Below are positions 10,275 to 54,877 of a stretch of DNA of 64,000 bases, in pieces. A program made the translations under genes and the position numbers. The DNA lies in NCBI GenBank assembly GCA_016935915.1, contig JAFGQB010000009.1:1-64000 (forward strand). The letters run 5' to 3'. Every line of letters begins with the position of its first letter. The first letter of the stretch is position 1. This DNA is from Spirochaetota bacterium (GTDB lineage: Bacteria; Spirochaetota; GWE2-31-10; JAFGQB01). The notes beneath the pieces are model-generated. The model ran no database searches. It saw only the letters and a program-made list of their open reading frames with translations, and was not told the origin of the DNA.

Positions 10275-10964
10275 ATGCAGAATAAGATCAGCCCTTCCAT
10301 CTGGACCATGTTGAAAACGCAATTTTCCAGACTGAAATACTGGAATATATTTATATTTATTAAAATGTCTATCTGGGAAATTTATTATTGGCTGATAAGC
10401 AGGCGCTCTCAAATAAAATATCTTTTTGCAATTGATGACTTGAACAATGAAGTAAAATCCGAAGATGAGACTTTATTCTACAGTCCGGCACCTTTTTTAT
10501 TTTTAAGGCAGTCATTTAATTTTATAAAAAAGGAAATAAAAGGTAAAATTTTTATTGACGCTGGCTGCGGTGCAGGGCGTGTGCTCTTACATGCAATGGA
10601 TTATCCTTTCAGTAAAATATACGGTGTTGATATGTCAAAATATTTAACCGATATAGCACAAGATAATGTAAACAAATACAGGAAGTGCAGAAAAAAACAG
10701 ATGCCTGAAGTTGAAGTCATACAAAGTGATATTTTGAAATTTAAAATCCCGGATGAACCTCTTGTCCTGTTTTTATTTGACCCTTTTAATGACGAAATAA
10801 CCGAAAAATTCATTGATAAACTTGTTAAAGAGAACAAAAAGGAAATTCATGTGATATATCTTTCGCCTCATAAAAAGGAAATGTTTAAAAGCAAAGGGTT
10901 TAAAACAATATGCAGCAAGGCAAATAAATACGGACGCGGATTTGTTGTAATGAATAAAAAGTAA
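10275..10964 (+). CDS. Class I SAM-dependent methyltransferase
   Basis: A 229-residue Rossmann-fold methyltransferase. Motif I is FIDAGCGAGR (about residues 93-102), the acidic end of strand 2 is YGVDMS near 117, and LFLFDPFNDE near 159 fits motif IV. The first 50 residues are hydrophobic and basic, suggesting a membrane-associated start. The ribosome site AGAGGA precedes the ATG. It lies 26 bases after the GtrA-like gene and is probably co-transcribed. The substrate (lipid, glycan or protein) cannot be read from sequence. Confidence 0.8.
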   Translation: MQNKISPSIWTMLKTQFSRLKYWNIFIFIKMSIWEIYYWLISRRSQIKYLFAIDDLNNEVKSEDETLFYSPAPFLFLRQSFNFIKKEIKGKIFIDAGCGAGRVLLHAMDYPFSKIYGVDMSKYLTDIAQDNVNKYRKCRKKQMPEVEVIQSDILKFKIPDEPLVLFLFDPFNDEITEKFIDKLVKENKKEIHVIYLSPHKKEMFKSKGFKTICSKANKYGRGFVVMNKK

Positions 10965-11641: not shown

Positions 11642-12910
11642 TTACGGTATATCAAGCCAGTCTATGAAACCTGCCCAGTTTGTGTCATTATTGAAAGCAT
11701 TATTTGGGTATTCAGTATCAATATTAGAAAGTAAAATTGATATGCCTTTTGCTTTTTCTATAAGAAATGGTCCGTGATATTCTTTAATTATTATTCCGCC
11801 ATTATCTATAAAATTTATGATATTATCTGCATGAGTTATTGCAGGATGTGTAGGATTACCCGCATCTATTAGTTTTTGTTTAACGTTTTTCATATAATAA
11901 TAAAGATCTGTATATCCAAAGGGATATCCTGTGGGATTAATTGATGATGGGAAGAACTCAATATCATCCCCTATATGGTCCGGCGTGGTATAATAAAAAC
12001 ATTCTTTATTTGTATTTTCTGTTAAAGTAAATAAGACAAATGAAGTTATATAAGATGAAAGTTCTGTCATTTTTGAAAGGTTAATTGCAGAAAGCGTTAT
12101 CTGAGATGATGATGAGTACTCTGATGCATAAGTAGTTACTATTTTTTTTGCAACTTTACTGATGCTTATAGAAGGGTCGTTATAAATTTCACTTATAAAA
12201 TCATATACTAAGCCAAAACCCGGCACATTATCCTCAGAGCCTACGAAATAATTGGCATAGTTTTTTGCCTGATGCATGATTTCTGCCATTCCCATTAAGC
12301 ATGCATCATATACTAATAAATCAAGCTTTCTGCCTATTTTAGCATTAAGATGCTGCAATATATCTACCTGTTCGCTGTCGCTTAATTCACTAGATCCATC
12401 AGATTCATCTCGCCCGACGGATTTTTGAATATAGGTATCGGAAGATATAATAGATTTATCAACTCCGGTTCCGTGATCCCAGAACACAAATATATAATGA
12501 TCAGCTCTATATCTATCAAGTGTGAAATCAATAAAGTCTTTTACAACTTGAGCATCTCCCATATCAATTTCTCCTGTGTCATATAGGAGTTTAGCTCCAC
12601 TGTATTTTATTAAATAATAACCGTGTCTGTTTCCTCCAACTATTGTAGGGATCTGATCCCATAAAACAACAATATTTATGTTTTCATCATTACACCAGAT
12701 TGGTATTTCGATTTCTATCATTTCATTTATATCATAAACAGAGTAGGGATTTAAATCATTATCTGAGCACATATAAATCATTATTGTCCATTTATCATCT
12801 GAAAAGCCTTTATAGTCAATAGCCTGTACCAATAATTCGTTTAAAGTTTCATCCAGGGAGCATGAAAAGAAAAGAGTTAAAAGTAAAATAAAAAAAATAA
12901 TTCGTTTCAT
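11642..12910 (-). CDS. Clostripain-family (C11) cysteine peptidase lipoprotein
   Basis: A 422-residue exported peptidase of the caspase-like clan CD. The N-terminus is a lipoprotein signal ending LTLFFSC (Cys17), a relaxed lipobox of spirochaetal type. The C11 fold then begins with KWTIMIYMCSDNDLNPY near 40. The catalytic His146 lies in FVFWDHGTG, and the catalytic Cys204 in VYDACLMGMAE, each at the end of a hydrophobic strand as the family requires. The family cleaves after basic residues and often self-activates. The cell target is unknown. The membrane protein at 11026 is the next gene in the same transcript. The ORF ends normally in a predicted strand/helix tail. Confidence 0.88.
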   Translation of the reverse strand: MKRIIFFILLLTLFFSCSLDETLNELLVQAIDYKGFSDDKWTIMIYMCSDNDLNPYSVYDINEMIEIEIPIWCNDENINIVVLWDQIPTIVGGNRHGYYLIKYSGAKLLYDTGEIDMGDAQVVKDFIDFTLDRYRADHYIFVFWDHGTGVDKSIISSDTYIQKSVGRDESDGSSELSDSEQVDILQHLNAKIGRKLDLLVYDACLMGMAEIMHQAKNYANYFVGSEDNVPGFGLVYDFISEIYNDPSISISKVAKKIVTTYASEYSSSSQITLSAINLSKMTELSSYITSFVLFTLTENTNKECFYYTTPDHIGDDIEFFPSSINPTGYPFGYTDLYYYMKNVKQKLIDAGNPTHPAITHADNIINFIDNGGIIIKEYHGPFLIEKAKGISILLSNIDTEYPNNAFNNDTNWAGFIDWLDIP

Positions 12911-13585: not shown

Positions 13586-15520
13586 ATGCATATTAAATTG
13601 CCTGAAAATTTAAAAACATTGATTGAAGTTTTAAAAAATACTGTTAAGGGATATCCTGATAAAATTTTTTTAAAGCATAAAATCGATAATATTTATTATT
13701 CAATAACATATCAGGAATTTTATAATAAGGTTGAAGCATTTACTGCTTCATTAATGCAGTTTGATGTAAAGAAAAATGAAAATATAGCGATAGTTTCTGA
13801 AAATATGCACAAATGGCTTATAGCGGATTATTCTGTGATGTCCCTGGGTGCAAAAGATGTGCCCAGGGGATCTGATTCCACAGCTCAGGAATTATTATAT
13901 ATTTTACGGCATGCCGATATCAGAATAAGCTTTGTCGAAGGTCCTGAACAGGCTGATAAATTGCTGTCGATCATAAAAGATCTTCCAAAATTAAAGATTT
14001 TTATCATGTTCAGCGGTAATATGAAAGATATAAAAACCAGGATTCCTGAAGGATTAAAAATATATTTTTTTGATGATCTTTTAAAAAAAGGTTTTGAGCT
14101 TGTTGAAAAATATAGATCACAGATAGAAAAACTGCAAAATGAGGTAAAAGAAGATGATGTAGTTACAATAATTTATACCTCAGGTACAACAGGTACTCCA
14201 AAAGGAGTAATGCTTACTCATAAGAATATTATGCATAATATCAGGGTATTACCTGAAATAATTCACATATACAGTCAGGAGCGCTGGCTATCTATCCTGC
14301 CGGTATGGCATGTTTTTGAAAGAACCATAGAATATATAATAATTTCAACATTCGGTTTGATGTGCTATTCGAAACCTACAGCAAAGCATCTTTTACCTGA
14401 TTTTGCAGAGATAAAACCTACTTTTATGGTAGCTGTACCGAGAGTCTATGAAGCATTATATCAGGGTATTGTAAGTAAGGTAAAAAACGGTCCCAAAATC
14501 AAACAGATTCTATTTAATTTTTTTATCAAAATTGGTACAATATATAAAAAATGCTTTAAAATTTTAGCTGGTCTGGAACCTCTTTTTGAAAGGGAAAATA
14601 TTTTTAAAATGATATATAAAAAAACCTACTCGTTGTTAGGGGTGATTTTTTTAATGTCTTTATATATGCTTGGGGACATTCTGGTTTATAAAAAGATCAG
14701 AGAAAAAACAGGGGGCTGTTTAAGAGGACCGATATCCGGAGGAGGAGCCCTTCCGGAGTTCGTTGATAAATTTTTTTCTGCGATCAATCTTGAAATACTT
14801 GAAGGCTGGGGTTTGACAGAAACAGCACCTGTCATTGGTGTAAGAATATTCGAAAGACTCGTTCCTAAAACAGTCGGAGCTGCAGCTCCTGAAGTTCAGA
14901 TCAGAATATGTGGTGATAATGGAGTGATGCTACCCAACCAGCATGAAAAAGGGATAGTTTATATAAAGGGTCCGAATGTTATGAAAGGCTATTATAAAGA
15001 ACCAGAAAAGACAAAAGCGGTAATATCAGATGACGGATGGTTCAATACCGGGGATCTGGGAAGATTAACATTGAAAGGCGATCTTCAATTGACTGGAAGG
15101 GCAAAAGATACGATTGTTCTAACCGGCGGAGAAAATATAGAGCCCGGACCTATAGAAGATAAGCTTTTGGAACATCCTTTGATACATCAGGTAATGGTTG
15201 TGGGTCAGGATAAAAAGGTCATTGGAGCACTTATAGTCCCTCATGAAGAGAATTTAATTGAATTTGCACAGAAGCATTCTATTAATTTCAATACCCTTGA
15301 GGATATATGTAATGATACGACTGTTCTGGAAGAATATAGAAAGATATGCAAATCAAAAATTAATATGAAGAACGGATTTAAGGATTATGAAAGAATAGTA
15401 CCGATAGCATTGCTTAAAGATCCTTTTCAGGTTGGGGTTGAAATCACCCATTCATTAAAGTTAAAAAGAAATTTTATACTTGATAAATATATTTCAACGA
15501 TTGAAAAAATGTTCCGCTGA
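13586..15520 (+). CDS. Long-chain acyl-CoA synthetase (AMP-forming)
   Basis: A 644-residue ANL-superfamily ligase of the FadD15/long-chain type, which activates fatty acids with ATP and CoA at the inner face of the membrane. The P-loop-like A3 motif YTSGTTGTPKGVMLTH is at about 197-212. GWGLTETAP lies near 410, NTGDLG near 490, and the hinge/A10 region LTGRAKDTIVLTGGENIEP near 505. A hydrophobic insert around 345-365 (GVIFLMSLYMLGDILVY) is typical of the eukaryote-like branch. The GENIEP end, with Pro rather than the usual catalytic Lys directly following, is normal for this branch. AAGG precedes the ATG. It may supply or salvage acyl chains for phospholipids. Confidence 0.9.
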   Translation: MHIKLPENLKTLIEVLKNTVKGYPDKIFLKHKIDNIYYSITYQEFYNKVEAFTASLMQFDVKKNENIAIVSENMHKWLIADYSVMSLGAKDVPRGSDSTAQELLYILRHADIRISFVEGPEQADKLLSIIKDLPKLKIFIMFSGNMKDIKTRIPEGLKIYFFDDLLKKGFELVEKYRSQIEKLQNEVKEDDVVTIIYTSGTTGTPKGVMLTHKNIMHNIRVLPEIIHIYSQERWLSILPVWHVFERTIEYIIISTFGLMCYSKPTAKHLLPDFAEIKPTFMVAVPRVYEALYQGIVSKVKNGPKIKQILFNFFIKIGTIYKKCFKILAGLEPLFERENIFKMIYKKTYSLLGVIFLMSLYMLGDILVYKKIREKTGGCLRGPISGGGALPEFVDKFFSAINLEILEGWGLTETAPVIGVRIFERLVPKTVGAAAPEVQIRICGDNGVMLPNQHEKGIVYIKGPNVMKGYYKEPEKTKAVISDDGWFNTGDLGRLTLKGDLQLTGRAKDTIVLTGGENIEPGPIEDKLLEHPLIHQVMVVGQDKKVIGALIVPHEENLIEFAQKHSINFNTLEDICNDTTVLEEYRKICKSKINMKNGFKDYERIVPIALLKDPFQVGVEITHSLKLKRNFILDKYISTIEKMFR

Positions 15521-15584
15521 TTTTTATTAATTAATCAATTTTATCATCATCAGAATTAGGTTTATTAAAGGAGGTTAATTATCA

Positions 15585-16019
15585 ATGAGTAAAGAAGAAA
15601 TGGCTATTGATTATTTCAAAAATGGTTTTAACTGTGCGCAATCTGTTTTATCGGCATTTATGAAGGATTTTAATCTTGATGAGATTTCTGCATTAAAAAT
15701 AGCAGGCGGTTTTGGTGCAGGTATGGGGAGACTCATGGAAACCTGCGGTGCTGTAAGCGGAGCTTATATGGTTTTGGGATTAAAGTACGGTAAATATAAA
15801 AAAGAGGATAATGAATCAAAAGAAAAAACATATTCCATGGTAATGGAGTTTAATAGGAGTTTCAGGGAGAAATTTAAATCAACAAACTGCGGTGAGTTGT
15901 TGAATTGTGATTTAAAAACCGAAGAAGGCAGGAAATATTTTAATGATAATAACCTTAAGGAAGCTGTTTGTGAGAAATGTGTAGAAATGGCTGTGTCAAT
16001 AATAAAAAAGATGATATAA
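15585..16019 (+). CDS. C_GCAxxG_C_C family redox-type protein
   Basis: A 144-residue protein with the defining cysteine pattern of this family: Cys17 (FNCAQSVL), Cys54 (ETCGAVSGAYM), Cys102 and Cys108 (NCGELLNC), and Cys129 and Cys132 (CEKC). The glycine-rich GGFGAGMGR stretch precedes Cys54. Members are thought to be redox-active and are common in anaerobes, often beside oxidoreductases. No enzymatic reaction is established. The strong ribosome site AAAGGAGG is about 10 bases from the ATG. The lactonase-like gene begins 4 bases after the stop, so the two are translationally coupled. Confidence 0.85.
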   Translation: MSKEEMAIDYFKNGFNCAQSVLSAFMKDFNLDEISALKIAGGFGAGMGRLMETCGAVSGAYMVLGLKYGKYKKEDNESKEKTYSMVMEFNRSFREKFKSTNCGELLNCDLKTEEGRKYFNDNNLKEAVCEKCVEMAVSIIKKMI

Positions 16020-16023
16020 AAGC

Positions 16024-17034
16024 ATGAACAATAACAGATTTTTTTATGCTGCAAGTTCTGAAGGTAGTATATCATTATATTATTTCAATCCAAAAAATGG
16101 AGAATTAACATTCAAAGAAAAGATTATCACAGACTCAGAGCCCTCATTTTTATCGGGAACTCATGATGGAAAATATCTTTTTGTATCCTTGAGGGATGAT
16201 AATATCCATGATCTTACATCATATAAAATCGACAAAAAAAACGGCAGACTTGAAGCAGTCAACAGAATAACTTTAAAAGGGGAAAGACCAGTTTACATTA
16301 CTGTTGACAAAAGCGGCAAGTTTCTCTTTTATGCCTGTATTAAAGGCGGCATTTTTTCCGTAATAAGAATTAATAAAAACGGAATTTTGCAGGAAGAAAG
16401 TGAAATCCATAAGATATCAGATTTTGCTCATCAGATCAGGATTGATTTAAATAATAAATATGTTTACATACCATGTTTTAAAAGTGATGTAATAGGCATG
16501 TATGTTTTTGATGAAAAAAAAGGTACTTTATCCCCCAATAATCCTGAGTGCTTTTTATGTAAAAAAAACACCGGTCCCCGTCATCTTGACTTTCACCCAA
16601 ACGGCAAATGGCTATATATTTTAAATGAGTTGAGTAATACTGTTACTTTTTTTATGATTAATGATAACGGTACTTTAAAAGTAATGCAGAACATTTCGAG
16701 TTTACCTGCAGGTTTTAAAAATTTCAGCAAAACATCTGATATTCACATTGATCGATCAGCAAGATTCCTTTATGCTTCGAACAGAGGCCATGACAGCATT
16801 GCTGTTTATGGGATTGATCGGAAGAACGGTAATTTAGAGCTTATTGATATTAAAAGAACAATGGGGAATGAGCCCATGAATTTTATCATTGATCCTTCAG
16901 GTAATTATCTTATTGTCGGAAACAGATCATCAGATGAGATAAGGGTTTTTAAAATTGATAAAAAGAGCGGATTGTTAGGTAATTGCCTTCATGTTTACAC
17001 TCATCCTCTGCCTATTTGTCATTATTTTGTATAA
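16024..17034 (+). CDS. Lactonase-type seven-bladed beta-propeller protein
   Basis: A 336-residue protein of the YbhE/Pgl lactonase family, cytosolic, with no signal peptide. Repeats of the form 'Y.x...G.L' are visible, such as YYFNPKNGELTF, SYKIDKKNGRLEAV, YVFDEKKGTLSP, YGIDRKNGNLELI and FKIDKKSGLLGN. PRHLDFHPNGKWLYILNE and GNEPMNFIIDPSGNYLIVG are the conserved blade motifs. Family members hydrolyse 6-phosphogluconolactone, but many homologues are uncharacterised, so the substrate is uncertain. There is no clear ribosome site. The start lies 4 bases after the preceding stop, suggesting coupling. The palindrome array begins about 115 bases after its stop. Confidence 0.82.
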   Translation: MNNNRFFYAASSEGSISLYYFNPKNGELTFKEKIITDSEPSFLSGTHDGKYLFVSLRDDNIHDLTSYKIDKKNGRLEAVNRITLKGERPVYITVDKSGKFLFYACIKGGIFSVIRINKNGILQEESEIHKISDFAHQIRIDLNNKYVYIPCFKSDVIGMYVFDEKKGTLSPNNPECFLCKKNTGPRHLDFHPNGKWLYILNELSNTVTFFMINDNGTLKVMQNISSLPAGFKNFSKTSDIHIDRSARFLYASNRGHDSIAVYGIDRKNGNLELIDIKRTMGNEPMNFIIDPSGNYLIVGNRSSDEIRVFKIDKKSGLLGNCLHVYTHPLPICHYFV

Positions 17035-21637: not shown

Positions 21638-23335
21638 TTAAAATAATTCAGCACTGTCAATTGAAGCAAGTCCGTGTTTTGTTGCAATCCAGAATCTGTT
21701 TCTTGCTGCATTTCCATCCCATAAAATGAACCTTACAGGTGATGGTCCATGGTTATAAAAGTCTATAGTATTAAAGTCCGGTCTATAAACTAATTTTCTG
21801 GTAGGTATAAAAGGCAATCCGTCCCATACAGTCAGCTCTCTTTCCCTTCCTGTTACAACATTTTTGAAAAAAACCGATTTTGTAGCTGTAACTGCCAGTA
21901 TATTTCCGTCAACTCCCCCTGTTTCAAGAGCTATTATTGGATTGTTCCTAAAGCTTTTCACTCTTTCAATTGTATTGATATCTAAAGTTACAAACGGACC
22001 ATTCCAGAGTTTGCTGCTGAAGCTGACCCATGCTTTTGAGAGTTTATTGATTCTGTACAAGCCGTATCTTGAGCCGAGATAAATATAATTGTCCATTACC
22101 TTGACGCTTGTTATTACAACGCTTTTTCTGGTGTCATAAGGATCGGGAATCCTAATGAGCCTTTTTAAGCCGTTCATTGCGTCATCGTATCTGTCTTCGG
22201 CAAAAGCGTCCAATGTTTGATAGTTAACGTAAAAAAGTCCGATTTTTGAAGCAAAAAAAGTATCCCTTCCGTCATACTCCGGGTCTCTCTCAATATCAAG
22301 TAAAAAAGGCAGATCCGGATGAATTGACTCAAATTTTCTAAAATCTACATTGGTAACAGATGTCCATGTAGGTGCTGCCAGTCCGGTATCTATACTTCTT
22401 AATGTCAGCATTCCGTATTTGTAAATAAAAAAGTAATAATAAAACTCGGAAGTTGAAACATATTTTATGCTTTCAAGCATATGTACATCCTTTAAAAATA
22501 TCTGACTGCTGTTTTTATAGGGTAAACTTCTGTTGTCAATAAAGTTAATGCTGTCCAATCCGGCTATAACATTAATATTTCCGTAATCATATAAGAAATC
22601 TGAATTTAATTTATCTATGTACCAGTATGCCTGACCATTATAACCATCGGGATCATCGACCTTAAAAACACTGCCATAAGCTTCACTACCTATAGATGTG
22701 TTGAAAGGATTAAAGGTATTAAAAGTTAATATATTAAAATAACCGTCTGTCAATCTTTTTGCGGTGAATATGGGATCATTTACTGGTGCATGGTTGTAAA
22801 TTACGGCTCCTGTTATATCAGCCATACCCGGTGCATTAGGATATGGGACATTAGGGAAATTTCTATAGTAATAATCAACTATAGTGGGTCTGTTAAAATC
22901 AAGAATGAAATCAATGTAAATTGTCTGATTTGGTATAGCTACAATATTTTTTTTTAAGTCTGTTACAAGGTAGGCATTGATCAATTCGTCATTGGTGCCG
23001 TTTGCAGCAAGAAATATTCCTAAACCAATATCCAGATTTATACCTGCCGGAATCGATATTTCTGCACTGTCATCACTTTTTAATATAACTGAATTTATTC
23101 TGTTACCATTGTTTTCAACAATCACTTCATATCTTACACTGCCGTTAAGTTTTAATGCTTCTTCTGTTGTCATGCCTGCTATTAATTTATTTAAAGGTAC
23201 TGATTTTGGCGTTATAATAAATGCATTGCCGTATTCTTCTTTTTCATCTTCGGCTATCATGCAATTTATTGATAAAAATATTATTAGTATAAATAAAATT
23301 GAAATATTTGAAATTTTTTTTATTCTGCCTTTCAT
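21638..23335 (-). CDS. Exported beta-propeller-like protein, last gene of the envelope operon
   Basis: A 565-residue protein with an N-terminal signal (about 1-29, LSINC before MIAED), possibly a lipoprotein with a relaxed spirochaetal lipobox at Cys26. I do not recognise the family. The C-terminal 300 residues show repeated sheet-like segments of the type found in sensor beta-propellers, such as FFASKIGLFYVNYQTL, YIYLGSRYGLYRINK, and finally RFWIATKHGLASIDSAELF. It follows the FecR gene by 9 bases with AGGAGG. Neighbouring FecR and barrel genes suggest a periplasmic or outer-membrane-facing role, but no reaction can be assigned. Confidence 0.6.
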   Translation of the reverse strand: MKGRIKKISNISILFILIIFLSINCMIAEDEKEEYGNAFIITPKSVPLNKLIAGMTTEEALKLNGSVRYEVIVENNGNRINSVILKSDDSAEISIPAGINLDIGLGIFLAANGTNDELINAYLVTDLKKNIVAIPNQTIYIDFILDFNRPTIVDYYYRNFPNVPYPNAPGMADITGAVIYNHAPVNDPIFTAKRLTDGYFNILTFNTFNPFNTSIGSEAYGSVFKVDDPDGYNGQAYWYIDKLNSDFLYDYGNINVIAGLDSINFIDNRSLPYKNSSQIFLKDVHMLESIKYVSTSEFYYYFFIYKYGMLTLRSIDTGLAAPTWTSVTNVDFRKFESIHPDLPFLLDIERDPEYDGRDTFFASKIGLFYVNYQTLDAFAEDRYDDAMNGLKRLIRIPDPYDTRKSVVITSVKVMDNYIYLGSRYGLYRINKLSKAWVSFSSKLWNGPFVTLDINTIERVKSFRNNPIIALETGGVDGNILAVTATKSVFFKNVVTGRERELTVWDGLPFIPTRKLVYRPDFNTIDFYNHGPSPVRFILWDGNAARNRFWIATKHGLASIDSAELF

Positions 23336-23344
23336 ATTATCCTC

Positions 23345-24016
23345 CTATTTTTTTACGTAGATCCTGATTATTATTTTAGCTTCAGATTTTATCGAGTTTA
23401 TACCCAATACATCAGAGAAATCGCCTTCTCCCTGTGATGTTCCCAGAGGGTTTGTATTTACAGCTGCAGAAACTACTTTATTATCTGCAGGTGAAGTAAT
23501 ATCACCGAAAGTGCTTATTACTGCAGTTTCATTTTTTTCTACCAGAGCGCTGAAGTTTGAGTCTGATAAAAGATAAACCGTTCCTTCATCAACCAGCAGC
23601 TCTTTATCTCCGAATTCAAAAATTGTACCCCTTACAGACGCTGTTGAGTTTGCGGATCTTACCTTAAAAAGAGTCTGGGTTTGTTTATTTACATTTACCT
23701 CAGCCCGGACTTTTCCGTATTTCAAATAAATGTCTGTAGAGATTTTATCTTGAGATACCAAAAGTGAAGAAATCGTTATTTGTGACAATGGTTTAACTTC
23801 AATAACCGCATTAGGAGTCTGTATAACTGCGGTACTTTTAAATCCGGTATAGATAATATAGCCGGGCTGAAGCTTATCGCCGACCTTTGGTATTATCCAT
23901 TCAGAATTTATATCCTTTTTAAACTGTACAAAACCTATTATTGATTTTATCGTTATTTGAGCATTTAGTGTGTATGTTATAAATATAATTAATAAAATAA
24001 TGATTATTTTTTTCAT
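23345..24016 (-). CDS. Secreted FecR-domain protein
   Basis: A 223-residue exported protein with signal peptide (1-19, ending NAQ) and one FecR domain: VGDKLQPGYIIYTGFKSTAVI near 45-65, YGKVRAEV near 100, then SANSTASVRGTIFEF (about 119-133) and LLVDEGTVYL. There is no transmembrane helix beyond the signal and no sigma factor nearby, so this is not the FecIR regulator. It is a free periplasmic FecR protein of the kind common in spirochaetes. AGGAGG lies before the ATG. It sits 9 bases after the barrel gene and 9 bases before the beta-propeller gene. Confidence 0.85.
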   Translation of the reverse strand: MKKIIIILLIIFITYTLNAQITIKSIIGFVQFKKDINSEWIIPKVGDKLQPGYIIYTGFKSTAVIQTPNAVIEVKPLSQITISSLLVSQDKISTDIYLKYGKVRAEVNVNKQTQTLFKVRSANSTASVRGTIFEFGDKELLVDEGTVYLLSDSNFSALVEKNETAVISTFGDITSPADNKVVSAAVNTNPLGTSQGEGDFSDVLGINSIKSEAKIIIRIYVKK

Positions 24017-24025
24017 AGCTGCCTC

Positions 24026-25696
24026 CTAAAAAGACATACTCATTATCAATCCGATCCGCCAGTAAGGAGTATAATTATCTAAATCAGGGTAGTTGGCATC
24101 ACTGCTGTAGTGGATCTTTCCGTTCGGAATAAATACAGCATTTTTTAACTCAATATTCAGATCGCTGAATACCTGCCATTTTAAAATAATATCAATCTCT
24201 GTACCAAGGTAGGCTTTAATGGGACTGTTTTTTTCTTCACCATCCTTTTGGTATATCGGCTTTTCAGGGAGAAATGAGTCTCCCTTTATAATTGGACGCA
24301 TAAATATTAATAGCGCAGTTTCTATTAAAAATCTAGAAAATACTTCATTTTTTACAAATCCGAATGGTTTTACACTATTTGTCAAAATAATTACAGCAAG
24401 ATTTGATAATTTCGGTTCTAATGCATATCCAAGTTTCGGTGAAGTAGGAGATCTGAAATTATGATCAAATTTATATTTCGGATTTTTTTGTTCCCAGATT
24501 ACCACTGCATCATCTATAAAATCTACATTTTCATCTCCATGACCGTATGCAAATTCAATATGTATGGAAGGAGTAGTAGCATGGTTGAAAAAATATGATA
24601 GTTTGGCATTCAATGAAAAGCTCTGGATTATTTTATCATCAACTATCAATTCGCTCCCTGTATTAAAGCATGAAGCATTTGTTCCAGTCTGATAAACCGC
24701 TTCGAAATTATAATAGAAATTCCCTGCTATCCTTCCATTTGCATTAAAGCTTATATAAAATGAATTGTACTTTCCGCCGAATGTAAATGGTACGTTTGAA
24801 ATGTGAGAGGGATAAACAAGAACGAATTCGTTGGGTATCAAATCTATATTTGCCAGAAATCCAAGCGAAAAATTCTGGAAATAAAACTGAAATAGATCAA
24901 TACTGAAACCTGTAAATATCCTGCCTGCTAAAACTGATGCATATCTTAAATTGTTAAGTCTTTCTTTTTCTTCTATAGAATAATCAGTGTATAATTTATT
25001 TTTAAAGAAAAAGTTATAATCAGGAGTTTTTATATCGCTTATAAAACCGTCATGGTCATTATCCAAAAGTCTATTGCTTAAAGGCGGATATCTTTTTTTA
25101 TCCCATCTGGTAAAAACAGGGACAGAGCTTGGGTCTTCAAAATTAAAAAAAGGCAGGTATTCAAAACTGTTTGTAAATCCGAAGAGCCTTAATTTAAAGT
25201 TCTGTATGGTAAAAAAAGTATCAAGTCCGTCGCCGCGCATTCTTAATAAAAAACCTGATGAATGATTTACATATATCCTTCCGATTTTTAAAAGGAAAAG
25301 ATCGTAATTTACGATTTTTTTGATATTATCGTTCTCATCTAAGATCAATGCTCTGTCTATTTTTTTTGATCTGAATTCAAAGAACAAAAGATCTATGCTT
25401 GGTATAAAATAAAAGTTTTCAAGGTCAATGCTGTATGCTTCCATGTCTTCAGTTCTTAATATGTCAGTATAAAATTTAAAGCCTCCGGTAAATCTTGAAT
25501 AAAAGTATACTTTGTCATTTATTTTCTGACTTAAAAAAAAGGATAGTGTATCTACAGTGTTGAACTTGTCATTTTCAAAATAATTATAAGTATAGAATAT
25601 ACCCCCGAGAAAAGGTTGTGAATTTATATTAAAAACCGTAATAAGAATAAAAATTAAAACCAGTATGTAATTATTGAATATTTTTTTTACTTGCAT
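24026..25696 (-). CDS. Predicted outer-membrane beta-barrel protein
   Basis: About 556 residues: a signal peptide (to about residue 27, INSQP), then long alternation of aromatic-rich strands and polar loops such as FYFIPSIDLLFFEFRS, NFYYNFEAVYQTG and NAKLSYFFNHA. The protein ends in a strand closing with Phe (RIGLIMSMSF), as outer-membrane barrels do. No family was recognised. An Asp-rich DNDHDGFISD segment looks like a calcium-binding loop. I start at the ATG at 25696, which has AAAGGTGG seven bases upstream. The start overlaps the end of the preceding gene by 26 bases, so translation is coupled. Confidence 0.7.
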   Translation of the reverse strand: MQVKKIFNNYILVLIFILITVFNINSQPFLGGIFYTYNYFENDKFNTVDTLSFFLSQKINDKVYFYSRFTGGFKFYTDILRTEDMEAYSIDLENFYFIPSIDLLFFEFRSKKIDRALILDENDNIKKIVNYDLFLLKIGRIYVNHSSGFLLRMRGDGLDTFFTIQNFKLRLFGFTNSFEYLPFFNFEDPSSVPVFTRWDKKRYPPLSNRLLDNDHDGFISDIKTPDYNFFFKNKLYTDYSIEEKERLNNLRYASVLAGRIFTGFSIDLFQFYFQNFSLGFLANIDLIPNEFVLVYPSHISNVPFTFGGKYNSFYISFNANGRIAGNFYYNFEAVYQTGTNASCFNTGSELIVDDKIIQSFSLNAKLSYFFNHATTPSIHIEFAYGHGDENVDFIDDAVVIWEQKNPKYKFDHNFRSPTSPKLGYALEPKLSNLAVIILTNSVKPFGFVKNEVFSRFLIETALLIFMRPIIKGDSFLPEKPIYQKDGEEKNSPIKAYLGTEIDIILKWQVFSDLNIELKNAVFIPNGKIHYSSDANYPDLDNYTPYWRIGLIMSMSF

Positions 25697-26126
25697 AATC
25701 ATCCACCTTTTGTAATAATCGTATTAAATTCAGACCTGAAATTTTTTCATGCTCTGAAGTGTATAATGGGATTATTTTTATAATCATTAGCTCTCTTGAA
25801 GCATATCTTCCGTTTTTGCCTGCAAGATAAAACATGCCGCTTTTCAAATCAAGATATTGTGCTGCAAATAAAGAGAAATCGCCGACAGTTAAAAGCTTTT
25901 TACTATTGTATTTTTTTGGGAAATATTTGATTTTTTGTTTTAAAAGTTCTATATTATCTTTATATTCTTTTTTTACTTCCATTTCATATAAATAGCAGAA
26001 GCTGATTATGCAGTCTTCAAATGTAGCATATTTTTTATCACTCAAGCTGTTCAAGAATTCTCCCTGATTGGCAAAGATAATGTCTGTTATAAATATCAGC
26101 AATATTATTAATGTTGTTTTTTTCAT
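25671..26126 (-). CDS. Small exported protein of unknown function
   Basis: A 151-residue protein with a clear signal peptide (1-19, IIFANQ) and an all-helical mature part rich in Lys and Glu. SLFAAQYLDLKSGMFYLAG near 90 and RYASRELMIIKIIPLY near 112 suggest amphipathic helices. No known family was recognised. It is the second gene of the five-gene envelope operon, 22 bases after the first barrel gene, and its 3' end overlaps the next gene by 26 bases. CGGAG precedes its ATG. Tight coupling with two barrel genes suggests a periplasmic chaperone or partner, but that is a guess from position. Confidence 0.6.
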   Translation of the reverse strand: MKKTTLIILLIFITDIIFANQGEFLNSLSDKKYATFEDCIISFCYLYEMEVKKEYKDNIELLKQKIKYFPKKYNSKKLLTVGDFSLFAAQYLDLKSGMFYLAGKNGRYASRELMIIKIIPLYTSEHEKISGLNLIRLLQKVDDYASKKNIQ

Positions 26127-26148
26127 AGGATGCTCCGTTTTTTTAAAT

Positions 26149-27246
26149 TCAAGTTTTCTTTTTCAATTTTGCAAACTGCCAGTCCTCTACCTGGAACCTC
26201 ATGCCCAATGTCAACATGCCGGTTTGCGAAGCTGCTGCAAAACTTGCTTCCACACCGAACCTGAAAATTTTTATAATGAATTCAAAGCCTAAAGATATGA
26301 TAAAATCAGTTACCGGTATAGTTCTGCCTATTTCGTTTAAAGATGCATCATATCCGGATTTGTTTGAAATTATGATTTCTTCCTTATAGGTGGTTTTAGC
26401 TTCAGCTGTGGCATCGCTTAGATCCAGATTAACTGTGAATTTAGTAAGATTGTAAGATATGGTTTGTACAAATTTAAAACCTGCAAAGGGCTGAAAAAAT
26501 AAAATTCTTTTACTAATTGCAAAATCAAAGAATATCGAAGTATTGCTGTTTTGAGAATAGAATCCCATTGTCGCAGGTATTGACGGATTAAACTCGTCAA
26601 GATTAACATTTCCAATAGGAATATCTTTAAGATCAAAAAGAGTATAACTAAATTGAGTCCCCATTCCGACAGACATGGCTGGAAAGTATTTATAATCCCT
26701 CATTATCGTATATTTAAAATTTGCACCGATGCTCCAATGAAGAATGTCATTTATATATTGTTCTGCTGATGTTGAAGCTTTCTTGACTACAGAACCTAAT
26801 GGTCCGATGTTAAATCTGCCTCCGATGGTAAAACCTCGGGGAAGCCCGATATCAAAGCTGTAATATGATATTGGAATAGGTAAAAAATTCTGATCAAAAA
26901 AATTTACCCCGTCAAGTAATCCTGCATCTTGAAGCTTGTCTGTAACATCAGCCCATTTTAGACCGAAAAAATCAATCGGCTTAATGAATCTTAATGGATT
27001 TTTGAAAAACATGACACCTGCTGTGGCGCCTGCCCTGAAAGCTGGAAAATGACCTACTGAGGCAGAACCTGTTATGTCCCCTCCGGCAGTATAAAGTCCT
27101 GCGATTTTAGAATAATCCAGAGCAAGCATATCTACCATGCCATTGAAATTGTAAAATACATTGTTTATAAAGTGATCCTGGGCAGCATTTGAAAAAATCA
27201 AGGCAGTTAAGAATATTAATAGAAAAGTAAAAAAGAACTTTTTCAT
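26149..27246 (-). CDS. Predicted outer-membrane barrel protein, first gene of the envelope operon
   Basis: A 365-residue exported protein with signal peptide (1-20, IFSNAAQ). The mature part is strand-rich: FPAFRAGATAGVMFF, FDIGLPRGFTIGGRFNIG, MSVGMGTQFSYTL and EFIIKIFRFGVEASFAA, ending LTLGMRFQ plus a short tail. It resembles spirochaetal outer-membrane proteins in texture, but I cannot name the family. AGAGA precedes the ATG, and no strong promoter hexamers are seen in the 213-bp AT-rich gap before the divergent PilZ gene. It heads a leftward run of five genes coding exported proteins, all with gaps or overlaps of 26 bases or less. Confidence 0.6.
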   Translation of the reverse strand: MKKFFFTFLLIFLTALIFSNAAQDHFINNVFYNFNGMVDMLALDYSKIAGLYTAGGDITGSASVGHFPAFRAGATAGVMFFKNPLRFIKPIDFFGLKWADVTDKLQDAGLLDGVNFFDQNFLPIPISYYSFDIGLPRGFTIGGRFNIGPLGSVVKKASTSAEQYINDILHWSIGANFKYTIMRDYKYFPAMSVGMGTQFSYTLFDLKDIPIGNVNLDEFNPSIPATMGFYSQNSNTSIFFDFAISKRILFFQPFAGFKFVQTISYNLTKFTVNLDLSDATAEAKTTYKEEIIISNKSGYDASLNEIGRTIPVTDFIISLGFEFIIKIFRFGVEASFAAASQTGMLTLGMRFQVEDWQFAKLKKKT

Positions 27247-27459: not shown

Positions 27460-28485
27460 ATGGAAAAATTTTATATATGGCCTGAGAATACAAGGTTTGA
27501 TTTGTTTTTTATATTTTTATTCATTTTGTTGGTTCTTTTTTTGATTGCTCAAATTTTCAAAATCATCAGGAACTACAGAAAAAAGGGAACTCTTGATTTA
27601 TTGGTTACCTACTGCAAAAGGAATGGACTGAATGACTATGAAACAGTACTTCTTAAGAGGTTATATAAAAGTTATCCTTTTTTAAATGTCAATTCATTTT
27701 TCAATGTTGAAATTTATTTTGATGAATATGTACAGCAGTATTTAAAAAAAACAAGAAATAAATATTATTCAAGAAATACATACAGAAATCTTGAATCAGA
27801 TCTTGTAAAGATCAAATCAAAGATCAATTTTGTAAAAAATGTTCCTTATTCATCGATAGATATTCCTCAAAATCAAAATGTGAAACTGAGATTTGAAAGG
27901 ATAGGCTTTATTACAGGAACTGTTATAAATAATGATAAAGAAGGTATTTTGATCAGAACCTATTTCAGTAATATTGTGAAGAAAGTGAAATCTCAGGATC
28001 GAATATCTATTTATTTCTGGGATGATGTCTATCAATATGAAGTGCATTCTAGTGTAAAAAAAATATCATACGTAAATTTCATACAATATATTATGGTTTA
28101 TCATCACAGCATGCTTATTAAAAGCAGGAATACTAGAGGGTTTCAGATTGATACCATGATCCCTGTATATTTTTGTCATATTTTTAATTTAAAGGAAAGC
28201 GATCATGACATTAAACTGAATTTTTTCAGAGGTAATATTAATACTTTTTCTATGATAGGTGCAGAGGTTTTTACCAAATTTAAGGTCAGTCCTATCGGGC
28301 TTTTTCTATTTGAATTCCATCCTCTAAATAACGAAGAAAAAATATTGCATTTTACCGGTAAAATAATCGAGCATAAAAAAGTGAAAAGAGGCACAATACT
28401 CTTTATCAAATATATTGACATGAATGAAGAGTGTAAAAAATATATAAATGACCTGATCTGTGAAAGGCTTAATGAAATAAAATAG
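27460..28485 (+). CDS. Membrane-anchored PilZ-domain (c-di-GMP receptor-like) protein
   Basis: A 341-residue protein with one N-terminal helix (about residues 12-36). A middle region holds a YcgR-like N-terminal beta domain (KLRFERIGFITGTVINN, near 145-160), and a C-terminal PilZ domain has RNTRGFQIDTMIPV near 225 and TFSMIGAEVFTKF near 265. In canonical PilZ domains the second motif is D/N-x-S-x-x-G. Here the first residue is Thr, so c-di-GMP binding may be weaker. Spirochaetes use similar proteins to control flagellar behaviour. There is no strong ribosome site. The stop codon overlaps the first bases of repeat copy B. Confidence 0.75.
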   Translation: MEKFYIWPENTRFDLFFIFLFILLVLFLIAQIFKIIRNYRKKGTLDLLVTYCKRNGLNDYETVLLKRLYKSYPFLNVNSFFNVEIYFDEYVQQYLKKTRNKYYSRNTYRNLESDLVKIKSKINFVKNVPYSSIDIPQNQNVKLRFERIGFITGTVINNDKEGILIRTYFSNIVKKVKSQDRISIYFWDDVYQYEVHSSVKKISYVNFIQYIMVYHHSMLIKSRNTRGFQIDTMIPVYFCHIFNLKESDHDIKLNFFRGNINTFSMIGAEVFTKFKVSPIGLFLFEFHPLNNEEKILHFTGKIIEHKKVKRGTILFIKYIDMNEECKKYINDLICERLNEIK

Positions 28486-29370: not shown

Positions 29371-32169
29371 ATGGCGGAAGTCAAAGAAAGCTTTAAAAAA
29401 AGAGTTAGAAAACTATTATCTAAATATTTCAATGATATTAATTTTCAGAGATTGTTTATAGTTATTTTATCCTTTTTAATTGTCTTAATAATTACAGTGT
29501 CTCCAGTATATTATTTTTTAAATTTAAAATCTTATGATCTTTTTATGACTTTAATCAAAAAACCGATCAAACAGGACGAGTCGCTTGTCTTGATAGATAT
29601 TGATGACAATACTATGAACTGGTTGAAATCAAGCTGGCCCATAGCAAGGAATTATCACGGTGATGTTATTGAAATACTTGCTGATTTTGATGCAAATCTT
29701 GCTGTATTTGATATTGAATTCCTTGAGGAAAGTGTTGTCGGAGCCGACAGTAAAAGGATCGATATTGTTAAACAGGATCTTGCAGAAAAATTTCAGTTGA
29801 TGCTTGATGATTATACAAAAACTACGGAATCATTATCAAAATCACCTGCAGGACATGGAAGGTTGGATCAACTGTGGAACAGCTTCAATGAAAAGATATC
29901 TAAATATTACCTTGATATTGAAGAAAATATAAACAACATAAGGATTGACAATGATCAATATTTTTCGGACAGACTTTTTTATTACAACAGGGCTTACGGT
30001 ACTGTCAATATGCTTATTGATCCAAATCTGTCAAAAACCGATATTAATGAAGCTTCTTACCGGAAACAGATCGAACAATTAAAAAAGTACGGTTATGAAA
30101 AAAAAGAGCTTTTAAATAGTAAAAAAAGTCATCAATCCATTATAAATGTCAATATATCGGAATTTCCGATTGATTCTTTTTTGAATGAATTTAAAGGTGT
30201 TGGCTTTACCTATGTTGAGCGGGATAGGGATGCTACAATAAGAGGTGTAAATCTCTTCATGGAAAGGGATGGTTATGTGATACCACAGCTTGCATTTAAA
30301 CCCTTTTTGGATTTTTTTGATATTAAAATGGAACAGATAGATCTTTCAAATAGCAGATATGTAATTTTGAGGGATGTTAATCTCAAAAATATCAAACAAA
30401 ATATTAAAATCCCTGTTGACAATGGATTAATGAATATCAACTGGCCCAGTGGAGAATACAGGGATATATTTACCAATAAGACGGTTGATGATAAAAAATA
30501 TCACTTTTCTTATTTTGATCTGTTAAATTATAAATATGTAATTGTCAAACAGTTTCTCGACTCTCTTGGAAAAAACTTCACAAAGTATCATGAATTAACA
30601 GAGGAAAATTATTTTTATCAATATTTTACTTTAATGCATACAGAAAAAGAAAGAATGCTTAAAGACATGTCCTTCCGTAGTATAAAGGATCAGTTTTTTA
30701 CAGATTATAATGAAAATCTTGAGAGTTTAAAAATATTTTTAACTGAGGAGAATATTAAAAAAAAGGAAGAAGAGGTAATAAGCAAGGGACTGGGAGAAAA
30801 AAAAGAAGAGATAAGAAAGTCAATGCTTGAAGTAAAGGAATCTCTGGAAATAATGTTAAAAGCAAGGGATGAATTATCCTTTTTAAAGGACAAGATTTGT
30901 TTTATAGGACACACTGCAACAGGTACCAGTGATATCGGTGCAACTCCCTTTGACAGAACATTTGAAAATGTCGGTGTACATCCTTCCTTCTTTAATACGA
31001 TTTTACAGAAAGACTTTATTTATTCGATAAAAACTTTTTTTATATTTATCATTACTTTGCTTATTTTTGGTATTCTGCTGTGGCATCTTGTGAAATTTGA
31101 ATCTGTTTATCTGGCTCCGATAGGATTTATTATTACTTTTTTGACTCTTGCAATTATTATGGTTTTTTACAGATTTACCAATATTTACATTTCGCCGATT
31201 GTACCGGTTTTATACAGTTTTATATCAATAGTCGTCATGATAGCATTTAAGTTCATAATGGCAGAAAAGGAAAAGGCTTTTATCAGAAATGCTTTAGATA
31301 AATATCTTTCTCCAGATTATATTGATGAAATATTGAAGGAGAAGACCAAGCTCAATCTCGGCGGTGAAAGAAAGGTATGCACAGCAATGTTCACTGATAT
31401 TCAAGGATTCAGCACAATATCAGAAAAGTTCATGGATGATCCACCAGGACTTGTATCACTTTTAAAGGATTATCTTTCAAGCATGAGCGACATTATACTT
31501 GATAATAAAGGGACTATCGATAAATACGAGGGCGATGCAATTATTGCATTTTTCGGGGCGCCAAAAGACATGGCAGATCATGCTTACAGAGCTTGTGTTT
31601 CTTCAATAAGAATGAAGCAGATTGAAGATCAGCTTAATTCTTTGCTATTAAACCAAAAAATTATTGATACTCCTTTGCTTACCAGGATAGGAATTAATTC
31701 AGGTGATATGTTCGTTGGGAATATGGGCACAACCAATAAATTCAATTATACGATGATGGGGCATGCTGTTAATCTTGCCTCAAGGCTTGAAGGTGTTAAT
31801 AAGCAGTACAAAACTTATCAGATGATCAGCGAATATACTTATGAACAGGTTAAAAATGAGATCATTGGCAGGAGACTTGACAGGGTTAGGGTAGTGAACA
31901 TCAATATTCCAGTAAGGCTCTATGAACTTATAGCTTTAAAAGATGAAATTAAACCTGAAACCATGGAGTTCTTAAAAGTTTTTGAAAGGGGTCTGGATGA
32001 GTTTGAAAAGAGAAGCTGGAAAGAATCTATGAAGATATTTAACGAAGCATTGAAGATAAAGAAAGACGATCAACCCACATTGATTTACATCGACAGATGC
32101 AATACCTATCTTACAAAAAAAGCTCCTTCTGCATCATGGGACGGTGTTTATAATCTGGGGACTAAGTAA
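29371..32169 (+). CDS. CHASE2-domain class III adenylate cyclase
   Basis: A 932-residue membrane sensor. It has a first helix (about 30-52), then a large extracytoplasmic CHASE2 domain (SLVLIDIDDNTMNWL near 71; LAVFDIEFLEE near 112; FIGHTATGTSDIGATPFD near 510). Three closely spaced helices (about 545-635) and a cytoplasmic class III cyclase domain follow. The metal-binding aspartates are in FTDIQGFS (Asp676) and YEGDAIIAFFG (Asp722). The transition-state pair is Asn801 and Arg805 (HAVNLASRLE). A TPR-like helix pair closes the protein (about 870-915). It makes cAMP in response to an unknown external signal. A coiled-coil insert near 465-495 is rich in Lys/Glu. The gene runs toward the CsgG-like gene with an 18-base gap. 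Confidence 0.92.
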   Translation: MAEVKESFKKRVRKLLSKYFNDINFQRLFIVILSFLIVLIITVSPVYYFLNLKSYDLFMTLIKKPIKQDESLVLIDIDDNTMNWLKSSWPIARNYHGDVIEILADFDANLAVFDIEFLEESVVGADSKRIDIVKQDLAEKFQLMLDDYTKTTESLSKSPAGHGRLDQLWNSFNEKISKYYLDIEENINNIRIDNDQYFSDRLFYYNRAYGTVNMLIDPNLSKTDINEASYRKQIEQLKKYGYEKKELLNSKKSHQSIINVNISEFPIDSFLNEFKGVGFTYVERDRDATIRGVNLFMERDGYVIPQLAFKPFLDFFDIKMEQIDLSNSRYVILRDVNLKNIKQNIKIPVDNGLMNINWPSGEYRDIFTNKTVDDKKYHFSYFDLLNYKYVIVKQFLDSLGKNFTKYHELTEENYFYQYFTLMHTEKERMLKDMSFRSIKDQFFTDYNENLESLKIFLTEENIKKKEEEVISKGLGEKKEEIRKSMLEVKESLEIMLKARDELSFLKDKICFIGHTATGTSDIGATPFDRTFENVGVHPSFFNTILQKDFIYSIKTFFIFIITLLIFGILLWHLVKFESVYLAPIGFIITFLTLAIIMVFYRFTNIYISPIVPVLYSFISIVVMIAFKFIMAEKEKAFIRNALDKYLSPDYIDEILKEKTKLNLGGERKVCTAMFTDIQGFSTISEKFMDDPPGLVSLLKDYLSSMSDIILDNKGTIDKYEGDAIIAFFGAPKDMADHAYRACVSSIRMKQIEDQLNSLLLNQKIIDTPLLTRIGINSGDMFVGNMGTTNKFNYTMMGHAVNLASRLEGVNKQYKTYQMISEYTYEQVKNEIIGRRLDRVRVVNINIPVRLYELIALKDEIKPETMEFLKVFERGLDEFEKRSWKESMKIFNEALKIKKDDQPTLIYIDRCNTYLTKKAPSASWDGVYNLGTK

Positions 32170-32200
32170 TAGAGTCGAAGGGGACAGTTACCAAATGACA
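32170..32200. repeat. REP-like fragment at a convergent gene junction
   Basis: TAGAGTCGAAGGGGACAGTT followed by ACCAAATGAC. It resembles TAGAGTCAAGGGACGGTTCT at 39915 and AAGGGACAGGTACTTGCC at 45212. Such GGGACRGTT phrases are typical of short dispersed palindromic elements. It overlaps the last codons of the CsgG-like gene. Confidence 0.4.
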
Positions 32201-33141
32201 AAATAGCAGAGCATCTTGTCCTTTTCTAAAGCAATGTTAAAATCAATATTCATCACTTTTTTGTTCAATGATGTATATTTGTCTGATGCTTTATAATAGT
32301 TCATTACAACTCTCACAAATCCCAAAAGTGAAAAGCATATAATGGTAGGTATCAGACAGAGAGCCATTGCTATAGTACAGCCCAAAGCTGCGAAACCCAC
32401 ACTTGTTCTTAGTTTGAGTCTTTCTGCAGGATCAGTTATCTCAGGTATCAATTTATAATATTCTTCAGGATTTAAATAATAGTATCCTAAAACAGTAGAA
32501 GGAACCATCAAAGCCAGTGAAGATAAGCCCCATATGTATAAATTTATAGCAATTGCATTTTTGGCATTTCTGGTATAAAGGGCTTTATTCTGCTTTCTTT
32601 TTTCTTCCTTTAATCGTTCTTCCTCTTTCTTTTTTTCTTCTTCCTGTTTTAATTTCAATTCCGCTTCAACATCGGTCCTGCTTTTTCTGCCTGATATTAG
32701 ATCAACGATTTTGGGTACAAGGTCAATCAGCATTTCTTTGGAAGTTGTTTCCAGAGACTGAGCAAATTCCGCTTCGCCTGTCTCAACGTTCACACCCCTT
32801 ACATTTATTGAGTATCTTGTACCTATTTTAGTCAAACTGCCCAGTACCACAAGCTGAGCTCCATACAATTTGCCGAGTTGTTTTCTTAAATCTTCATTGA
32901 AATCATCCGAGTTCTGAAGGTTGAGCTCTCTCATCACCTTATTGAGGTCCTGCCGTTCAACAACCCTGAACTGCTGTGTGTTTATCAAAGCAGTCATTAA
33001 ATGTTCGACTATTGCATCAGCCAGGTATGCTTCATTAATAGCTTCACCTTTTGCAGTAAATTCCAGAACTGCTACTCTGATCTTGTCACTGTAAACCAAT
33101 ACATTTAAAAAAAGCAGTATTCCAATAATGATTTTTTTCAT
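32188..33141 (-). CDS. CsgG/FlgO-like exported protein with C-terminal membrane helices
   Basis: A 317-residue protein: signal peptide (1-18), then a CsgG-type domain (RVAVLEFTAKGE near 22; LADAIVEHLMTALINTQQFRVVERQ near 42-66; AQLVVLGSLTKIG near 95). A Lys/Glu-rich coiled coil (about 162-190) and two hydrophobic helices (about 197-221 and 250-278) follow, and the tail is KVMNIDFNIALEKD. CsgG-fold proteins form outer-membrane secretion pores or periplasmic regulators, but the extra helices make pore formation unlikely. AAAGGGAG precedes the ATG. The last eight or so residues run into a REP-like fragment, so the C-terminus may have been altered by an insertion. Confidence 0.75.
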   Translation of the reverse strand: MKKIIIGILLFLNVLVYSDKIRVAVLEFTAKGEAINEAYLADAIVEHLMTALINTQQFRVVERQDLNKVMRELNLQNSDDFNEDLRKQLGKLYGAQLVVLGSLTKIGTRYSINVRGVNVETGEAEFAQSLETTSKEMLIDLVPKIVDLISGRKSRTDVEAELKLKQEEEKKKEEERLKEEKRKQNKALYTRNAKNAIAINLYIWGLSSLALMVPSTVLGYYYLNPEEYYKLIPEITDPAERLKLRTSVGFAALGCTIAMALCLIPTIICFSLLGFVRVVMNYYKASDKYTSLNKKVMNIDFNIALEKDKMLCYFVIW

Positions 33142-54105: not shown

Positions 54106-54877
54106 TAAAATTAAAGAAATAAAAAACAGTGGCAGAATTGGATTCATGGGGCATGTTATTGCAGGATTTCCCGATTTTTCAAGTTCACTGCAGGCAGCTA
54201 TGGGCATTTGTGAGGGTGGATCCGATTTTCTTGAAATACAGTTTCCTTTTTCCGACCCAACCGCAGACGGCCCTACCATTGAAGGAGCCTGTTATAAAGC
54301 ATTGGAGAATGGATTTAAAATTAAAGACGGCTTTAAACTCATAGAAGAACTTAATAAAAAAAGTGATACGATTATATTAATAATGACTTATGCCAATATA
54401 ATTTTTAAGTATGGCATAGAGAATTTTGTTGAAAAATCTGTAGACGCAGGAGCATCCGGTTTGATTATTCCTGATGTACCTATTGAAAGGGATGAGGGAT
54501 TGAATGAAATAGCTTCAAAAAATCGGATCGATAATATTTTAATTGCAACTCCAGGGGACAGTGCTGAAAGGATAAGAGAGCTTTCAAAGGCAGGCAGCGG
54601 ATTTCTCTACACTGTTGCCCGAAGAGGAATAACAGGTAAAAAATCCGAGTTCAATAAAGAAGCCAAAGAATGGTTTGAACTTGTGAAAAATAATTCTACT
54701 CTGCCTATAGCTGTAGGATTCGGCATAAGAACAAAAGAACAGATCAGACAGTTAAAGGATTATTGTGATATTGCCATAATGGGCAGCCACCTGGTCAATA
54801 TCATTAATGATGCCTGTCAGAATAAAAAAGATATTAAAAATGAATTGAAACTTACTGTGGAAAATTTATTGAATTAA
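54086..54877 (+). CDS. trpA: Tryptophan synthase alpha chain
   Basis: A 263-residue TIM barrel that splits indole-3-glycerol phosphate to indole. Catalytic Glu50 is in DFLEIQFPFSDP and Asp61 in TADGP. The phosphate-binding motifs are SGFLYTVARRGITG near 171 and IAVGFGIRTKEQ near 211. The N-terminal strand reads FMGHVIAGFPDF, unlike the common PYLTAGDP, matching the divergence of TrpB. It overlaps trpB by 20 bases and has AAGAGG just upstream of its ATG, so synthesis of the two subunits is coupled. Confidence 0.94.
   Translation: MNKKTNDKIKEIKNSGRIGFMGHVIAGFPDFSSSLQAAMGICEGGSDFLEIQFPFSDPTADGPTIEGACYKALENGFKIKDGFKLIEELNKKSDTIILIMTYANIIFKYGIENFVEKSVDAGASGLIIPDVPIERDEGLNEIASKNRIDNILIATPGDSAERIRELSKAGSGFLYTVARRGITGKKSEFNKEAKEWFELVKNNSTLPIAVGFGIRTKEQIRQLKDYCDIAIMGSHLVNIINDACQNKKDIKNELKLTVENLLN

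Follow-up and report, generated by a model that had tools for sequence, protein, structure and literature searches.

A five-gene envelope operon and a CHASE2 cyclase gene in a Spirochaetota bacterium: a probable split variant of the NsrA-CHASE2 type of signaling module

CHASE2 receptors have been described alongside a number of envelope proteins. In Sinorhizobium meliloti, NsrA, an outer-membrane receptor with its barrel at residues 600-1200, works with CHASE2 cyclases (PMC13001267, PMC7529298). CHASE2 cyclases of Campylobacterota cluster with a FecR-domain outer-membrane protein (PMC9239204), and the Burkholderia BiofilmReg operon encodes a FecR-domain protein together with a CHASE2 histidine kinase (PMC5192318). 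OmpM, finally, combines an SLH domain with an outer-membrane barrel and is stated to be absent from Gracilicutes (PMC10628300). The locus described here bears on what input CHASE2 receives and on how an inner-membrane cyclase may be controlled by an outer-membrane protein.

We analyzed a stretch of 64,000 nucleotides (positions 1 to 64,000 of contig JAFGQB010000009.1, assembly GCA_016935915.1; hereafter "the window") from a Spirochaetota bacterium whose genome is represented by an incomplete assembly (3.72 Mb, 310 contigs, 77.9% complete). The window carries an operon of five genes for envelope proteins (W1 to W5) and, at 29371-32169, a gene for a CHASE2 cyclase. Based on the gene set, its linkage, the domains and the predicted folds, we propose that the operon and the cyclase gene probably encode one trans-envelope signaling module, i.e., a split, SLH-containing variant of the NsrA-CHASE2 type. 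The features concerned are as follows:

26149..27246, minus strand: W1, 365 residues, exported, probable outer-membrane barrel (open reading frame [ORF] and strand heuristic)
25671..26126, minus strand: W2, 151 residues, exported, predicted SLH fold; core part
24026..25702, minus strand: W3, 558 residues, outer-membrane barrel of the Alginate_exp type (Pfam, alignment A2); core part
23345..24016, minus strand: W4, 223 residues, exported, FecR-domain protein (Pfam); core part
21638..23335, minus strand: W5, 565 residues, probable lipoprotein with an N-terminal beta domain and a probable C-terminal beta-propeller
29371..32169, plus strand: class III adenylate/guanylate cyclase with a periplasmic CHASE2 domain and four membrane segments; predicted output of the module

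Conservation of the operon and its linkage to a CHASE2 cyclase gene

All five minus-strand ORFs that the first-pass annotation had grouped into an envelope operon were confirmed at 21638-27246; they are tightly packed (separated, from W1 to W5, by 22 bases, a 32-base overlap between W2 and W3, 9 bases and 9 bases) and each of the five proteins starts with a hydrophobic export segment. In a sample of 100 related genomes, which counts the source genome as one and includes nine from the taxonomic order of the window, W3 was matched in 13 genomes, W1 in 9 (five of them weakly) and W5 in 5 (one weakly). Close homologues of W1, W3 and W5 are limited to the source genome and to genomes G001, G004 and G007 of its taxonomic order, and these three keep the same five-gene order at 30-50% protein identity (in G007, W1 is cut by a contig end); retention of the order at this level of divergence is more than would be expected by chance.

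Six-frame searches with a profile of each part covered 13 loci from the relatives, 28 from a genome collection and the window, which after removal of six duplicates gave 36 distinct loci; 27 of the 28 collection loci came from spirochaete metagenome assemblies and the remaining one from an uncultured bacterium. FecR, W2 and barrel genes occur together in 34 of the 36 loci, the other two (L090 and L091) being cut by contig ends, and the three are separate genes in the window as well as in all 34 loci that hold them. The gene order is FecR-W2-barrel in 30 of these 34 loci and W2-barrel-FecR, as in the window, in 4; W2 and the barrel are found together in 35/36 loci, the remaining one again being truncated by a contig end. 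The scattering among relatives that had been named as grounds for abandoning the operon as a unit was thus not what the search for its gene order in spirochaetes revealed.

The same loci identify a further partner, as 25 of 36 carry a linked cyclase gene. W5 is directly followed in both G001 and G007 by the gene for a homologue of the window cyclase, and the G004 contig ends inside such a gene, so that all three relatives with the five-gene order have it. Linkage of W2 and FecR within the 36-locus set is conditional on the barrel, on which the set was seeded, and an independent test seeded on W2 was therefore made. The W2 family was matched in 117 of the phylum's 296 genomes. Genomes G000-G099 hold 45 W2 matches, of which 21 have a listed CHASE2 gene at a distance of 10 kb or less, while gene number and genome size would predict 0.69; such a neighbor is also present for 10 of the 15 strongest W2 matches. 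Neighbor counts drawn from the lists of FecR and CHASE2 matches are lower bounds. Ten further regions (L106-L115) were then chosen from the W2 matches and read; five of them (L106, L107, L109, L110 and L111) hold all four parts, i.e., FecR, W2, barrel and cyclase, in varying orders and orientations, L108 and L112 (the latter a short contig) hold W2 and the cyclase, and L114 holds FecR, an unassigned ORF and W2. Membership that stays constant while the order is shuffled is the pattern expected of a functional unit.

The window cyclase itself matches Pfam CHASE2 with 100 bits and Guanylate_cyc with 62.5 bits. In the predicted topology, an N-terminal membrane segment is followed by a periplasmic stretch of about 490 residues (the CHASE2 part, about 54-546), then by three further membrane segments and, in the cytoplasm, by the cyclase domain; the CHASE2 match is split into two stretches, which suggests an insert in this domain. 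The metal-binding, substrate and transition-state motifs of class III cyclases are kept in 9/9 aligned cyclase homologues. The source genome has 11 cNMP_binding matches, so that readers of cyclic nucleotides probably exist in it. In locus L017, the intact cyclase gene is directly followed by another CHASE2 copy (15520-16197; G001:C11:103633-104553), which is degraded and contains four stop codons. In the window, a gene divergent from the operon (27460-28485, plus strand) lies between operon and cyclase and encodes a 341-residue protein with a hydrophobic N-terminus, as judged by eye, and no Pfam family, while the ends of the cyclase gene and of a gene for a CsgG/LpoB-family protein (32188-33141, minus strand) are 18 bases apart.

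With a CHASE2 cyclase as the conserved partner, the linkage data point to signaling. The first-pass annotation had suggested that the operon could encode a surface complex or a secretion system; its view of a single, non-Fec envelope operon was borne out, the order being conserved in spirochaetes, but a stand-alone role is improbable in view of this partner, and no transport energizer or secretion part was found in the operon. A secretion system was also considered and rejected, since neither the operon nor its conserved neighbors encode an ATPase, usher, secretin or energizer.

A number of observations weigh against a single module that includes the cyclase. In the window, the cyclase gene is located 2.1 kb upstream of the operon, on the opposite strand and with two unrelated genes between, so that direct adjacency has been lost there. 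The cyclase gene is not near the module in six of the 36 loci (L019, L021, L091, L093, L094 and L097), and in five more (L020, L024, L075, L076 and L089) it was not seen, with contig ends within about 1 kb. Similarly, 24 of the 45 W2 matches have no CHASE2 gene within 10 kb among the matches listed, and two regions, from two genomes of the taxonomic order of the window (L113, 5362-7475, and L115, 4836-6913) hold W2 and a barrel only, a bare pair that is possibly a minimal unit. CRP-like sites are not in excess in the window (28 as compared to 29.4 expected, with up to 2 mismatches to the consensus). Finally, SMc02177, a FecR protein encoded beside cyaD1 in S. meliloti, was reported to be dispensable for signal perception (PMC5498481), an argument against FecR being indispensable to all sets of this kind.

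Predicted properties of the envelope proteins

W2, which the first-pass annotation had described as a small exported helical protein, does have an export segment, and structure prediction gives it an SLH fold. An AlphaFold2 model built from a 10-sequence alignment has a pLDDT of 89.6; the first 15 ranks of a Foldseek search with it are all SLH structures, none of which passes E 0.001, and a second structure aligner gave Z 12.5 to SpaA-SLH (7sv3) over 130 aligned residues at 3.0 A. Below the SLH rows in the structure list, an S-layer cytochrome reaches Z 8.3, and the next entry, the first without an S-layer title, Z 5.7. W2 is thus predicted to adopt an SLH fold that Pfam does not recognize, with PF00395 (SLH) matching 0/10 W2 members up to E 10. 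The TRAE ligand motif of SLH domains is not kept; the window protein has T-V-G-D, and T-R is present at that place in one of the ten sequences. Elsewhere in the source genome we found a single weak Pfam SLH match and one match to PS_pyruv_trans, which is not specific evidence of cell-wall glycan binding.

The predicted fold of W2 raises the alternative that W2 and W3 together do the job of OmpM, as a split tether from the outer membrane to the cell wall or as a porin, with FecR protein, propeller and cyclase as loosely attached regulators. Such an arrangement would be consistent with the near-constant pairing of W2 with a barrel, with the occurrence of this pair by itself in L113 and L115, and with the combination of SLH domain and barrel reported for OmpM (PMC10628300). 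On the other hand, linkage to the cyclase is far above chance, and a family found in 117 of 296 genomes is patchily distributed for a structural tether. W2 also shows neither a Pfam SLH match nor, in nine of ten sequences, the T-R pair of the TRAE motif, and overall we regard a tether or porin of this kind as unlikely.

W3 can be assigned more directly. It matches Pfam PF13372 (Alginate_exp) over residues 321-526 with 31.9 bits, against a cut-off of 25.2 bits, and all three barrels that were scanned with Pfam exceed this cut-off; W3 is an outer-membrane barrel and a core part of the module. A strand-alternation heuristic ranked W3 first and W1 second among the 43 window proteins; this heuristic is weak, and on it a number of W3 relatives score close to chance. 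Two barrels had been proposed for the operon from the first reading of the sequence. The Pfam match upholds this for W3, while W1, which has no Pfam family even at E 10, is a probable outer-membrane barrel on the strand-alternation heuristic.

Given the Alginate_exp matches, W3 could instead be an AlgE-like exporter, the operon encoding a pore for polysaccharide export or uptake with a surface propeller, and the cyclase neighborhood reflecting co-regulation by cAMP. The match covers only residues 321-526 of W3, however, and the constant companions of the barrel are FecR and W2 rather than glycan enzymes. Moreover, no alginate synthesis genes were found in a Pfam scan of 41 of the 43 window proteins (those at 10275-10964 and 54086-54877 were left out), and we consider a polysaccharide pore quite improbable.

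W4 matches Pfam PF04773 (FecR) over residues 55-135 (30.2 bits; cut-off 24 bits). Its hydrophobic stretch is the export segment only and FecR is its only domain, with no cytoplasmic anti-sigma part and no further transmembrane segment. A match of W4 to the NCBIfam model for Lsa33, a Leptospira adhesin, was rejected, as its 36 bits compare with a cut-off of 420 and were taken to reflect only the shared FecR domain. The first-pass annotation had argued that, without sigma factor or TonB receptor, this is not the classic iron signaling set, and the 41 window proteins scanned indeed include neither. Classic Fec-type (FecI-FecR-FecA) iron signaling was accordingly rejected, the operon offering no ECF sigma factor, no TonB-dependent receptor and no anti-sigma part on W4. 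A FecR-based set with a sigma factor encoded elsewhere in the genome would fit the FecR domain as such, and FecR copies are plentiful in the phylum; with W4 consisting of a single export segment and a FecR domain, and with the negative result of the window scan, we give this explanation very little credence.

W5 is probably a lipoprotein, as suggested by Cys25, which is invariant in 4/4 sequences; the preceding Asn in the window protein is unusual. The C-terminus is probably a WD40-like propeller, the comparison being made with a predicted model of low confidence overall (pLDDT 58.3). Residues 229-565 match propellers, with 581 Foldseek matches at E <=0.001, the best 50 of which include the sensing propellers BT4663 and BT3049 (PDB 4a2l, 3v9f), and with a best Z of 14.8 in the second aligner; on this model, fold comparison supports the earlier designation of a propeller-like protein for this part of W5. 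The N-terminal domain is related to lipoproteins encoded near FecR in distant loci (hhalign 95.9%, as compared to <=6.8% in a control against five other part families). In three such loci (L089, 782-3437; L026, 460-6121; L085, 4028-6937) tandem paralogous lipoproteins with this domain are encoded near the FecR gene, and are perhaps interchangeable surface sensors.

Pfam assigned no family to W1, W2 or W5, and sequence searches of solved structures with four part alignments found no useful relative, one weak match to a penton base (E 0.056) being disregarded. Elsewhere in the window, we observed a tandem pair of membrane proteins of the YfhO family, each about 917 residues long (2751-5510 and 5515-8262), and a Clostripain-family peptidase with a lipoprotein-like start (11642-12910, minus strand).

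Fused counterparts and comparison with known systems

When plasmid records were searched by tblastn with the cyclase as query, 551 records matched, of which 30 were listed and four regions were read; the listed matches include alphaproteobacterial cyclases. On pSymB of S. meliloti Rm41, a 1216-residue ORF contains FecR (85-179) and TPR repeats, and its C-terminal half is consistent with a barrel; this ORF and the start of a CHASE2 cyclase gene overlap. This fused protein and its cyclase resemble, by analogy, the NsrA/CyaK type of plant-signal receptor, and the fused order FecR-helical part-barrel-cyclase is the gene order of most spirochaete loci. A FecR protein also precedes a CHASE2 cyclase in Shinella and Ruegeria. 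In Shinella (L103, 8312-15142), NHLP bacteriocin export genes and a gene for a cyclic-nucleotide-binding protein come after the pair and are possibly its output. An Azospirillum cyclase (H7) was rejected as a counterpart, having dCache rather than CHASE2 and no FecR neighbor.

Under our proposal of one trans-envelope module, a surface assembly on barrel W3 would detect either a cue from outside or the condition of the envelope; W1 and W5, the probable lipoprotein with the propeller, would be lineage-specific additions to this assembly. Periplasmic W4 (FecR) and W2 (predicted SLH fold), perhaps in touch with the cell wall, may bridge from the barrel to the periplasmic CHASE2 domain; the inner-membrane cyclase would then make a cyclic nucleotide, probably cAMP, to be read by CRP-type proteins. 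The working mode could be like that of Sinorhizobium NsrA-CyaK, with FecR, helical and barrel parts as separate proteins. The contacts between the proteins, the inward direction of the signal, the ligand and cAMP as the product are inferred. A bolder and more speculative version, which we advance only tentatively, is that the module senses the state of the envelope, a wall-held SLH-fold protein and the barrel forming a split tether and FecR informing the CHASE2 cyclase of its tension or detachment. If true, this would be a signaling tether in Spirochaetota, a phylum said to be without OmpM-type SLH-barrel tethers, and it would give CHASE2 a mechanical or wall-derived input rather than a soluble ligand.

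Because the barrel, SLH-fold linker, FecR and propeller parts of the spirochaete module are separable, every step can be studied by itself, which fused proteins of 1200 residues do not allow. Protein families unnamed in Pfam also gain a function-linked context, and the pairing of a predicted SLH-fold protein with a barrel of the outer membrane is now placed in a Gracilicutes phylum.

In searches of open-licence papers, none of the matches listed described this module from spirochaetes. The suggestion in the first-pass annotation that the set had not yet been described holds for the split form but not for the overall design, since FecR, an outer-membrane barrel and CHASE2 output have described precedents (PMC9239204, PMC7529298, PMC13001267). 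With NsrA and its cyclases CyaK, CyaD1 and CyaD2, the spirochaete module shares the design of an outer-membrane barrel and an inner-membrane CHASE2 cyclase; it differs in that its parts are separate proteins and that TPR repeats are replaced by a protein with a predicted SLH fold, and the taxonomic order of the window adds a second, probable barrel and a probable lipoprotein propeller. The Campylobacterota cluster likewise combines a CHASE2 cyclase with a FecR-domain outer-membrane protein, to which a phosphodiesterase and a TPR protein are added; an SLH-fold protein and a propeller are not mentioned in the portion of the source available (PMC9239204). BiofilmReg is similar in that a periplasmic FecR-domain protein is encoded beside a CHASE2 receptor, but has a histidine kinase as output, LysM on the FecR protein and, in the part of the source at hand, no barrel described (PMC5192318). 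OmpM likewise pairs an SLH domain with an outer-membrane barrel, but does so in one chain (PMC10628300), whereas W2 and W3 are two proteins from overlapping genes and the SLH ligand motif is not kept. BT4663 and BT3049 are, like the proposed role of W5, bacterial extracytoplasmic sensing propellers, the W5 match being at fold level only; W5 differs in being a separate, probable lipoprotein without kinase fusion. What is new as compared to these systems is the division into separate proteins, the predicted SLH fold of one of them, the propeller and the distribution in spirochaetes.

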